A stretch of 5,733 nt of DNA from Conexibacteraceae bacterium (GTDB lineage Bacteria; Actinomycetota; Thermoleophilia; Solirubrobacterales; Solirubrobacteraceae). The DNA is taken from positions 1 through 5,733 of the forward strand of contig WQWK01000143.1 of the NCBI GenBank assembly GCA_009785395.1, in the 5' to 3' direction. Below are positions 3,599 through 5,733 of this stretch, piece after piece (position 1 is the first letter of the stretch; each line of letters opens with the position of its first letter). Position numbers and translations under genes: made by a program. The notes under the pieces were generated by a model. It searched no databases and was not told the DNA's origin. It was given only the letters and a program-made list of their open reading frames with translations.

Positions 3599-4489
3599 TT
3601 AGATCGTCGAGCCGTTCGGCAGCAGCCCGTGACTGCCGGCGACGGCGATGCCGCCCACAACGCTGACCACCGCGATCAGCAGGCAGCCGCCCAGCACGAC
3701 CGCGCGCTGGTTGCGCTTCTCGCCGTACTCGGTCACGAGCCAGCCCGTGATGAAGCCCGACAGCACCCCGCCGACGTGACCGCCGATCGACACGCCGGCG
3801 ACCGTCAGCGTGTAGATGAAGTTGAACAGCAGGATCGGCAGCAGACCCGACTGCCACAGCGGGATCCGGCGCGCGCGGGCGACCATGATCAGCGCGCCGA
3901 AGATCCCGAAGATCACGCCGGACGCACCAAGCGTCGGCGCTATCGGGGTGAACAGCAGCGCACCGAACGAGCCCGCCAGCAGCGCCGTGAAGTAGATCGC
4001 CGCGAAGTAGAGCTTGCCGATCGCCGGCTCCAGTGAGCGGCCGACGAACCACAGCGAGAGCATGTTGAAGCCAATGTGGATGATGCTCGCGTGCAGGAAG
4101 CCGGAGGTCAGCAGCCGCCAGTACTCGTGGGAGCCGTGGCTCATCAATGGGCCGTAGAGCACCCCATGCTCGAGCGGCCAGGCAGCCAGCGAGTTGCTTC
4201 CCCCGATCGGGTAGCCGGCCCCAACCTCCCATAGGAACACGATCACGTTGATGACGATCAGCGTGTTCGTCACCGACCAGGTTCGCGGATCCGTCAGCGT
4301 CGCCGGTCGCGCGAAGCTCGCGCTGGCGCCGCGGCCGTGGATCCGCCGGACCTTGGTGCGCTCGCCCGCGCACTCCGGGCAGCGCATCCCAACCGAGGTC
4401 GGCGTCATGCAGTCTGGACAGATCGGACGTCCGCAGTTCGAGCACGAGACGCCGGTCTCGCGCGAGGGGTGGCGGTAGCAGGCCGGCAC
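3599..4489 (-). CDS. Rhomboid-family intramembrane serine protease with N-terminal zinc-binding module
   Basis: Multi-pass membrane protease that cuts transmembrane helices of other proteins. Of 296 residues, 4-40 form a B-box-like zinc module with spacing C-x2-H-x8-C-x2-C-x4-C-x2-C-x9-C-x2-C (C4, H7, C16, C19, C24, C27, C37, C40). A linker (41-70) follows, then the rhomboid core. The core has WRLLTSGFLH (124-133), H138 and N142 matching the GlpG H145/H150/N154 set, the nucleophile Ser190 in GASGVIFG, and catalytic His238 in GGHVGG. All catalytic residues are present, so it should be active. A last helix (about 264-285) follows the core, suggesting a seventh transmembrane segment. The start is GTG, needed to keep C4 and H7; there is no good ribosome binding site, and the gene begins 11 bp after the stop of the 113-residue membrane protein, so coupled translation is likely. 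It is probably the last gene of the sigma-factor cluster and ends at the shared hairpin (3553-3584). Confidence 0.94.
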   Translation of the reverse strand: MPACYRHPSRETGVSCSNCGRPICPDCMTPTSVGMRCPECAGERTKVRRIHGRGASASFARPATLTDPRTWSVTNTLIVINVIVFLWEVGAGYPIGGSNSLAAWPLEHGVLYGPLMSHGSHEYWRLLTSGFLHASIIHIGFNMLSLWFVGRSLEPAIGKLYFAAIYFTALLAGSFGALLFTPIAPTLGASGVIFGIFGALIMVARARRIPLWQSGLLPILLFNFIYTLTVAGVSIGGHVGGVLSGFITGWLVTEYGEKRNQRAVVLGGCLLIAVVSVVGGIAVAGSHGLLPNGSTI

Positions 4490-4500
4490 GGTGAGACGGT

Positions 4501-4842
4501 CTAACGGTCCGGGAGGACCCGCCGCGCTTCCTCGGCGATGTCGTGCAGCGTGCGCTCCGCGTATTCGATCAGGGTGGAGCTCTGACCACGGCGCGACTTC
4601 TGCCGGGCGCGCACACGCAGCGCCACCAGCGCCGTTCCGGCGGTGACGGTGACCGTCACCGCGACCGCCGGACGCACCCAGTTGCGCGGATCCCGCATCG
4701 CCGCCAGCTCCCAGCTGTCGAGCTCCTCCTGGGCAGCCTCGGTCAGCACCGTGAGGGTCGACTCGAACTTCTCGGAGAACTGCATCGGCGGCTCGACCGG
4801 TGTCAGCGCCTCACGCAGCAGTGCCTCGACGTTCGCGGTCAT
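4501..4842 (-). CDS. Small single-pass membrane protein, candidate anti-sigma factor or rhomboid substrate
   Basis: 113 residues that I do not recognise as a named family. An acidic, helix-prone N-terminal part (1-50, with LTPVEPP at 13-19 and TEAAQEELDSWELAAMRDPRNW at about 34-55) leads into one weak transmembrane segment at 58-75, rich in Thr, Val, Ala and Gly (TVTVTAGTA). A very basic stretch follows (76-85, seven Arg/Lys), then a likely amphipathic helix to the end. There is no HxxxCxxC zinc anti-sigma motif and no cysteine at all. It follows the sigma gene and precedes the rhomboid gene by 11 bp, which suggests an anti-sigma or sigma-tethering role and possible cleavage by the rhomboid; both are inferences from position. 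The basic flank favours a cytoplasmic C-terminus. The ATG overlaps the stop of a 10-codon minicistron (ATGA, 4842-4839), inside a 29-bp tandem repeat; the ribosome binding site is weak, so translation is probably coupled. Confidence 0.8.
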   Translation of the reverse strand: MTANVEALLREALTPVEPPMQFSEKFESTLTVLTEAAQEELDSWELAAMRDPRNWVRPAVAVTVTVTAGTALVALRVRARQKSRRGQSSTLIEYAERTLHDIAEEARRVLPDR

Positions 4843-4900
4843 CGCTCGCTCGTGTGATCGTTCGCGGTCATCGCTCGCTCGTCTGATCGTTCGCGCTCAT
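4830..4900 (-). repeat. 29-bp tandem repeat at the sigma / membrane-protein gene junction
   Basis: On the minus strand, unit 1 (4900-4872) and unit 2 (4871-4843) are each 29 bp and differ at two positions. A third partial unit (4842-4830, 13 bp) matches unit 2 exactly. Every unit begins with ATGA. Unit 1 encodes the last ten residues of the sigma factor, unit 2 a free decapeptide ORF, and unit 3 the first four codons of the membrane protein. The length is 29 bp (3x10-1), which is what keeps a 4-base ATGA stop/start overlap at each joint. There are no spacers, so it is a simple tandem duplication. Confidence 0.9.
4839..4871 (-). CDS. Ten-residue minicistron created by the 29-bp repeat
   Basis: ATG at 4871-4869 overlaps the sigma stop TGA (4870-4868), and the frame encodes MTANDHTSER then TGA (4841-4839), which overlaps the ATG of the 113-residue membrane protein. 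The peptide differs from the sigma factor's own C-terminus (MSANDQTSER) at two residues. It looks like a by-product of duplication that may still pass terminating ribosomes from the sigma gene to the membrane-protein gene. Whether it is translated, or does anything as a peptide, is unknown. Confidence 0.4.
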   Translation of the reverse strand: MTANDHTSER

Positions 4901-5452
4901 CGGTCCTGAACCATTCTCCTCGGCTTTGCCGACGATTCCCTCCAATTGCCGGATCGCGCGGTGCAGCAGCACCTTCGTCGCCCCGTCGGAGCGGCCCAGC
5001 GCCCGCGCGATCTCACGGTTGTCCATTCCGAGCGCGAAGCGCATGATCAGCGCCTCGCGCCGATCGTCGGGGAGCTGCTGGACGCCGTCGATGATGCTCT
5101 TCAGCTCCTCGCGCCCCTCGACGAGCGACTCGGTCGTATGCAGGGTAGAGATCATGCCCGCGTCCTCGATCGCGGACTCCGGCTTGCGCGAGCGGTCGCG
5201 ATAGAAGTTGGCCGCGAGGTTGTGTGCGATGCGGATGAGCCATGGACGCAGCGGTCGTCCGTTGGACTCGCGCAGCGCCCGCTCGAAGTGCCGGTAGGCC
5301 TGCAGGAACGTCTGCTCGGTGAGGTCCTCGGCGTCGTGATGGTTGCCGACCCGGTAGAAGCTGTAGGAGTACACGTCGCGCAGGTGCGCGCGGTAGAGCT
5401 CGCTGAAGCGTCTGTCCAGCTCGTCCTTGTCCATCGGCGTGTCGGTGTCCAC
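4868..5452 (-). CDS. ECF-type RNA polymerase sigma factor
   Basis: Directs RNA polymerase to a specific promoter set. Of 194 residues, sigma region 2 spans about 16-88: YRAHLRDVYSYSFYRVGN, then DAEDLTEQTFLQAYRHF (40-56) for core binding, and RPWLIRIAHNLAANFYRDRSR (69-89) for -10 recognition. After a linker, sigma region 4 spans about 122-175, with LPDDRREALIMRFALGMDNREIARALGRSDGATKVLLHRAIRQL forming the helix-turn-helix that reads the -35. There is no region 1 or 3, as in ECF sigmas. The last ten residues, MSANDQTSER, are encoded by the first unit of a 29-bp repeat. The start is GTG; an ATG at 5434 (Met7) is the alternative, and neither has a strong ribosome binding site. TAGGCT (5467-5462, minus strand) fits a TANNNT -10 nine bases before the GTG, without a visible -35. 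It heads the cluster with the small membrane protein and the rhomboid. Its target promoters are unknown. Confidence 0.92.
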   Translation of the reverse strand: MDTDTPMDKDELDRRFSELYRAHLRDVYSYSFYRVGNHHDAEDLTEQTFLQAYRHFERALRESNGRPLRPWLIRIAHNLAANFYRDRSRKPESAIEDAGMISTLHTTESLVEGREELKSIIDGVQQLPDDRREALIMRFALGMDNREIARALGRSDGATKVLLHRAIRQLEGIVGKAEENGSGPMSANDQTSER

Positions 5453-5481
5453 TGCACGGAGAGCCTACCTGTACACCTCAT

Positions 5482-5509
5482 GCGAGCCGCCGCCACTCAG
5501 GCGGCTCGC
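5482..5509 (-). terminator. Hairpin spanning the end of the acyltransferase gene, before the sigma gene
   Basis: GCGAGCCGCC (5482-5491) and GGCGGCTCGC (5500-5509) form a perfect 10-bp stem with an 8-base loop (5492-5499). The stop codon of the acyltransferase gene (5497-5499) lies in the loop, so one arm is coding sequence. No T run follows on the minus strand. It sits 29 bases before the sigma start and could be a U-less terminator or a partial attenuator separating the two genes. Confidence 0.45.
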
Positions 5510-5733
5510 GCGGTCTCACGCGCGGGCTCGGGCTCGCGTTCGGGCTCGACATCGCCGCCGAGCCACGCCCACTGCAGCTTCACGCGCGCCCACACGTGCC
5601 CGGTCACGCCGCCCGCCCCAGCCGGGGTGGCGACATCCACGTGCAGGAAGCGCAGCGGGCGCCCCGCGCGCACTCGGACCCGGTGCGGTCGCAGACGCCA
5701 GCCGCGGCGGATCGCCTCGGTGCCGATGATCGC
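5497..5733 (-). CDS. PlsC-like lysophospholipid acyltransferase, C-terminal tail (5' end outside window)
   Basis: The minus-strand frame is open from the right edge to TGA at 5499-5497, giving 78 residues. AIIGTEAIRRGWRLRP (1-16) followed by HRVRVRAGRPLRF (17-29) is the pattern that follows the catalytic core in 1-acyl-glycerol-3-phosphate acyltransferases (the 'VIGTE... R.. VRVRFG.PL' strand). The later VTGHVWARVKLQWAWLGG (43-60) resembles the helical end of actinobacterial PlsC-like proteins. These make phosphatidate by acylating lysophosphatidate at the membrane. The HX4D motif and the glycerol-phosphate site are off the edge, so activity cannot be judged. The tail ends in an EP-rich, likely disordered stretch (EPEREPEPARE). 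The gene runs in the same direction as the sigma factor, 44 bp upstream of it, with a hairpin over its stop codon. The family call rests on pattern memory of a short tail. Confidence 0.62.
   Translation of the reverse strand, partial: AIIGTEAIRRGWRLRPHRVRVRAGRPLRFLHVDVATPAGAGGVTGHVWARVKLQWAWLGGDVEPEREPEPARETARAA

Follow-up and report, generated by a model that had tools for sequence, protein, structure and literature searches.

The described systems closest to the locus analysed here are gene pairs that overlap by ATGA or TGATG and are translated by termination–reinitiation, the MIRUs of mycobacteria, and short coupled ORFs that feed a following gene. In the natural overlapping pairs of Escherichia coli and Haloferax treated in the accessible part of PMC6728339, translation of the downstream gene depends on upstream translation in most, not all, cases. 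Coupling is best at −4 to +3 spacing and becomes weaker with distance, with studies differing in places (PMC12548453, partial text). A MIRU is a short repeat located at a gene start, where a small ORF is coupled at −4 spacing; these repeats occur in many mycobacteria and are apparently mobile (PMC12548453, partial text). Short coupled ORFs that feed the next gene are represented by the iraD leader ORF (PMC5574718, partial text) and by bicistronic design (PMC12548453, partial text). Among the matches listed from open-licence full texts, no title concerned tandem duplication of a stop/start overlap.

The window (the whole 5,733-nt stretch of DNA that was analysed) carries on its minus strand, in this order, genes for a sigma factor (5452–4868), a 10-codon ORF (4871–4839), a 113-aa membrane protein (4842–4501), and a rhomboid protease (4489–3599). 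The sigma factor belongs to the ECF group by its domains: sigma-70 regions 2 and 4 are present (PF04542, PF08281, and PF04545 only) and region 3 was not found.

4868–5452, minus strand: ECF sigma factor, 194 aa (Pfam PF04542, E 1.3e-15, and PF08281, E 1.5e-13; TIGR02937 above cut-off)
4839–4871, minus strand: minicistron ORF MTANDHTSER, 10 codons plus stop, with its start on the sigma stop and its stop on the next start
4501–4842, minus strand: 113-aa protein; a single membrane helix is likely at about residues 56–82 (helices from a model of low confidence, pLDDT 58)
3599–4489, minus strand: rhomboid protease with an N-terminal zinc-finger-like stretch (PF01694, E 1.5e-31; PF00643, 20.1 bits, below the cut-off of 24.1)

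The junction between the sigma and membrane genes (4830–4902, minus strand) is occupied by a 29-bp tandem unit present in 2.5 copies (TRF: period 29), the score of which is 132 vs 71 for the best of 200 dinucleotide shuffles of the window.

4830–4902, minus strand: 29-bp tandem array, 2.5 copies (TRF score 132, 95% matches)
4872–4900, minus strand: unit 1, giving MSANDQTSE and two further bases in the sigma frame, the bulk of the putative array-derived sigma extension
4843–4871, minus strand: unit 2, the body of the minicistron
4830–4842, minus strand: partial third copy, coinciding with bases 1–13 of the membrane-protein gene (13/13 identical to unit 2; 15/15 with the two preceding bases)

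The first-pass annotation had described a 29-bp tandem repeat with three ATGA motifs 29 bp apart. All three motifs are present on the minus strand (4900, 4871, and 4842, at intervals of exactly 29 bp), whereas the unit itself is repeated 2.5 times. Units 1 and 2 are identical at 27 of 29 bases, and both differences alter a residue (S/T, Q/H). The third copy is identical to unit 2 over its first 15 bases and then diverges into the membrane gene (18/29 overall). With up to 3 mismatches allowed, the unit was found in the window at these two sites only (chance expectation 0.00). The three motifs lie in three different frames: 4900 is in the sigma frame, 4871 starts the decapeptide, and 4842 starts the membrane protein. 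The peptides named by the same annotation were recovered, namely MSANDQTSER as the sigma tail, MTANDHTSER as a free ORF (4871–4839), and MTANVEAL... at the start of the 113-aa protein, of which the N-terminus MTANVEALL is common among the listed kin. The proposed relay of overlapping stop and start codons consists of two overlaps (4871–4868 and 4842–4839, 4 nt each, same strand) and not a third, as the ATGA at 4900 is read through as ATG AGC. A length of ten codons minus one base keeps the 4-nt overlap, as seen at both ends of the minicistron.

Lengths of the form 3n − 1 occur among MIRUs as well, for example 77 and 53 bp. The minicistron of the window has ATGA at both ends, and the small ORF of a MIRU is likewise −4 coupled, the coupling being predicted in the window. 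Unlike a MIRU, the window unit is 29 bp long and includes the first 13 bases of the local gene itself, and it has no second place in the window. A DNA search of 232 genomes of the order gave one short match (28–33 bases) in each of 6 genomes; five fall on query bases from the sigma or membrane gene and one on array bases. The latter (L115; G056:C5:122064-122092) has 26/29 array bases at a site where neither gene is present, and its E value of 4.6e-4 for one genome is near chance over 232 genomes. The array may be called MIRU-like in form, the two being set side by side by description and not by sequence. ATGA/TGATG termination–reinitiation pairs have the same 4-nt, one-strand overlap as the window (PMC6728339, partial text). 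The window differs from them in having two serial overlaps around a 10-codon ORF, which appear to have been made by duplication. In the iraD leader ORF and in bicistronic design, ribosomes load onto the short ORF de novo, whereas that of the window would be fed by a full upstream gene.

The sigma/membrane junction was compared at 268 loci, including the window. The adjacent pair is present in 263 and absent in L114, L115, L118, L129, and L186; after 90 duplicate junctions were dropped, 173 distinct junctions were left (the window and 172 relatives). Stop and start overlap directly in 123/172 relatives (66 by 4 nt, 50 by 8 nt, 5 by 1 nt, and 2 by 11 nt). Gaps of 1–4 nt occur in 26/172, nine of these with a relay of 2–3 codons, and gaps of at least 5 nt were called in 14/172, or 13 once L250 was removed by hand on account of an ATG located some 14 nt before its sigma gene ends. 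The calling rule gave no start in nine relatives (L127, L138, L150, L236, L248, L252, L256, L259, and L261). A self-repeat scan of the 173 junctions found the 29-bp array in the window and in none of the 172 relatives, and its other entries were L228 (a triplication), L005, L022, and L165 (sigma-tail repeats), and L236. The last (G089:C129), which has a 17/20-base start-region repeat at 54 bp and a membrane gene that matches in two pieces, is possibly an in-frame start duplication and was set aside.

The array is also missing from the nearest junction, L003, at 88% protein identity. The idea of the first-pass annotation that unit number may vary between strains thus has no counterpart among the 172 relatives compared. 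In a DNA alignment, 56 bases at the array site are absent in L003 and 59 are absent in L004, L013, L001, and L016. Seven of the 12 best sigma matches are 184 aa long, and their end corresponds to the array start in the window; two of this length, P0142 and P0157, terminate in NGSGP, the window residues just before the array. No 4-residue word of the new sigma tail was found in the 201 sigma-search proteins (P0121–P0321; best 120 matches per search), and a search with the sigma-tail region likewise gave no such word in the best 120 of 194 matches. Because the array is absent from 172 relatives, most of which overlap directly, and because the sigma factors of close kin end at window residue 184, it is, by sequence comparison, a derived state. 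By the same comparison, the ten C-terminal residues of the sigma factor are new and array-derived, and the old sigma stop was most likely located at the first ATGA (4900).

A second case is L228 (genome G204, which belongs to neither of the two families searched separately). The start sequence ATGAGYAGSGAGGTCG is present three times, the copies being 39 and 41 nt apart. These sum to 80, that is, 3 × 27 − 1, as the unit of the window is 3 × 10 − 1. An ATG on the sigma stop opens 27 codons, closing on the TGA within the membrane gene's ATGA, whereas in L070 (88%) and L227 (84%), the closest kin, the two genes simply overlap by 8 nt. The minicistron of L228 arose by its own start-region triplication, independently of the array in the window. 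The earlier suggestion that duplication at an ATGA junction added a whole minicistron with the overlap kept is supported by the relatives, in which the array is lacking and direct overlap prevails, and by L228, where units of other lengths led to the same outcome.

On balance, the array is probably a local tandem duplication of the coupled sigma/membrane stop/start junction, made in this lineage and kept as a termination–reinitiation relay. A ribosome finishing the sigma gene would restart at once on the minicistron, finish it, and restart on the membrane gene, so that a single jump of 25 nt would be replaced, through the minicistron, by two restarts at zero distance. Each added 29-bp copy (3 × 10 − 1) would shift the frame such that stop and start meet once more at the following junction, and the 29-bp unit may survive because this shift restores the overlap; other unit lengths would lead to gene fusion or to a dead gap. 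The membrane protein would remain tied to sigma translation, with a yield relative to sigma that is at best unchanged and probably lower, since two restarts are required rather than one. The decapeptide MTANDHTSER is probably not a functional product.

Relays of the same kind, with a minicistron reaching from the sigma stop to the membrane start, are present in 12 of the 13 relatives with gaps of at least 5 nt, L228 included and L231 being the exception. Their minicistrons have 9, 8, 3 + 20, 7, 7, 4, 5, 19, 7, 10, 27, and 10 codons. The relay rule was extended to 8-nt overlaps once L228 had been noticed (11/13 before, 12/13 after). In the main null model, in which each junction kept its own ends, gap letters were shuffled, and length was jittered over frames still callable as a gap, relays averaged 5.2/13, and the fraction of the 20,000 runs that reached 12 was 0.0001. 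With one hand-chosen locus per near-kin group, 9/10 are relays (null mean 3.9; share 0.00045). Further null models of 4,000 runs each gave means of 3.7 (own ends with length jitter) and 4.9 (ends from all relatives), and neither reached 12. When the observed ends and gap lengths were both kept, the mean was 10.0/13 and 2.4% of runs reached 12; a relay is thus near-automatic at these ends and lengths, and the excess lies mainly in the frame. The relay label requires 10 changes, gains or losses, on the 173-row tree with the window included (FastTree; 60/170 inner branches weak). Among the gapped relatives, L035 (Candidatus Solirubrobacter pratensis) has 3- and 20-codon minicistrons in series with 4-nt overlaps over the 63 bases past the sigma stop.

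Part of the relay excess could come from left-over ancestral starts, which would not involve selection: if a gene start moves downstream, the ancestral start stays on the sigma stop, and of the two frames then possible, one would yield a relay. The main null model allows for such starts, and 12/13 relays are still above it.

It is also conceivable, though unlikely, that the array is a neutral slippage minisatellite, a replication accident in a frame that happens to work and with no effect on expression worth selecting. Its absence from all 172 relatives' junctions fits this explanation, and the two differences between units 1 and 2, each of which alters a residue, give no sign of constraint on the peptide. 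L224 and L233, with 90% identical proteins, both have 29 nt and share 6/10 peptide residues, so that 4/10 differ at the same length. The gaps of L063 and L066 are both 16 nt, and those of L119 and L120 differ by 3 nt, or one codon. Taken together, these near-kin pairs, although only three in number, look like constraint on frame rather than on peptide. Against neutrality, frame is respected above expectation at the sigma/membrane junction, and two separate duplications, in the window and in L228, both sum to 3n − 1. The junction therefore looks constrained, even if the array itself is not adaptive.

For the duplication-made relay, the ribosome sites give a mixed picture: their predicted strengths at the three ATGs of the window are −4.0, −3.7, and −3.7 kcal/mol, none of them strong, and the relay relatives are divided over which start has the stronger site. 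Median values are −7.7 for relatives with an overlap (123) and −6.6 for those with a gap (13), against −3.7 kcal/mol for the membrane gene of the window, and the site is stronger than that of the window in 152/162 relatives. A weak site at the membrane gene fits ribosome delivery from upstream. Special RNA structure at the junction was considered and rejected: folding is unremarkable (z 1.04) and 177/200 shuffles fold at least as well. With a weak membrane-gene site and no unusual RNA structure, restarting is favoured over unfolding.

The same sites bear on an explanation that is less probable still, namely that the membrane gene is initiated alone at 4842 and that the minicistron is in practice untranslated. 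A purine-rich stretch does precede each ATG, and in 5/12 relay relatives (L035, L063, L119, L120, and L172) the stronger site is the membrane gene's own. Overlapping E. coli pairs with de novo starts are on record as well (bioBF and, in part, menDH; PMC6728339, partial text). However, the stronger site precedes the start on the sigma stop in the other 7/12 (L014, L031, L066, L137, L224, L228, and L233), direct overlap is the common state among the relatives, and the window's own site is weaker than nearly all of theirs.

By arithmetic on the window, removal of one unit leaves a plain ATGA overlap between the sigma and membrane genes, and removal of two leaves an in-frame 297-aa sigma–membrane fusion. 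It is very doubtful that the array acts as a slippage-driven translational switch, in which unit number would set the ratio of sigma factor to membrane protein and would even tether the sigma factor to the membrane. If it did, the present state would be that of separate proteins coupled via one minicistron, and each further unit would add another at a cost in yield. The first-pass suggestion that copy number could tune the sigma to anti-sigma ratio is likewise speculative. Least likely of all is that an assembler made or miscounted the repeat. Its presence in a single record and in 0/172 relatives would fit this. Against it, units 1 and 2 differ at 2/29 bases and the third is partial, assembler copying errors do not usually leave differing units plus a partial copy, the 73-bp array is shorter than the usual read length, and, at the protein level, 2 contigs are listed as sources of the identical 113-aa sequence.

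If the array is a relay made by duplication, a coupled junction can absorb new DNA without uncoupling, additions of 3n − 1 converting a stop/start overlap into a relay. At this one operon junction in one bacterial order, relays need about ten changes on the tree, and at least two cases arose by duplication. The junctions form a graded natural set, from 3 to 27 codons and with one or two minicistrons, on which the cost of each extra restart could be measured, and they point to a class of very short ORFs below the length cut-offs of gene callers. Measurement of coupling efficiency across diverse bacteria is named as future work by the authors of PMC6728339 (partial text).

Within the genus of G001, which carries the nearest junction (L003), 27/28 genomes have the 113-aa protein; it is also found in 119/146 genomes of the family of G002 and, by profile, in 195/232 genomes of the order. 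Among the sequence matches listed, the best ones that carry a name are from Solirubrobacterales or unspecified Actinomycetota, and closer kin of the 113-aa protein, represented by protein only, are up to 87% identical. The first-pass annotation had called this protein an anti-sigma factor, a label that finds no counterpart in Pfam or NCBIfam: the window's protein matches no family at E 1e-3 in either, and no recognisable anti-sigma domain was found in it. No anti-sigma family appeared in 23 of its kin at E values up to 1. Weak Pfam matches within the 113-aa family (alignment A1) are to DUF4639 (18/23, best 5.9e-4) and DUF3379 (5/23, best 1.3e-4), a possible remote link. A PDB search with the protein returned a single match (E 0.41). 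Anti-sigma identity by family or fold was set aside, as no match is decisive and the model of the 113-aa protein (pLDDT 58) is too weak.

The rhomboid gene lies immediately downstream of the 113-aa gene in 68/146 loci (window included; loci long enough to tell), directly behind the sigma and one-helix membrane genes, and the N-terminus of the protease is CxxC-rich. Gene adjacency suggests that the rhomboid might cleave the membrane protein. Regulated release is attractive because of the constant adjacency, the one likely membrane helix, and the frequent rhomboid neighbour, but no family or fold match points to an anti-sigma factor.

Seven listed single proteins of 303–316 aa (P0130, P0138, P0147, P0153, P0158, P0169, and P0174) have the sigma factor fused to the membrane protein, and in four of them (P0130, P0147, P0153, and P0174; 303–312 aa) the fusion is in frame. 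These fusions are probably indels in assemblies, since all are single-member entries and several have frame-shifted tails. The model of one fusion, P0147 (pLDDT 68.5, pTM 0.33), is too weak to judge sigma binding. The records of L076 and L078 are titled as Bifidobacterium breve MAGs, and their form of the operon is close to that in Solirubrobacterales records; the organism names are probably wrong.

No known RNA element was found in the window at Rfam gathering scores, and a simple consensus search of 4400–5733 found no promoter or terminator. Elsewhere in the window, genes for a pterin-4a-carbinolamine dehydratase (2636, minus strand) and a periplasmic-binding-protein-like product without an obvious signal peptide (2651, plus strand) diverge. 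Their likely start codons are separated by just 14 bases, too few for ordinary promoters to fit between the two genes. In the region 503–968, 3′ of a 3-hydroxyacyl-CoA dehydrogenase gene, two GC-rich hairpins (about 587–623 and 729–757, identified by eye) share a GAAGCCGGCCC arm and are terminator-like or a repeated element.
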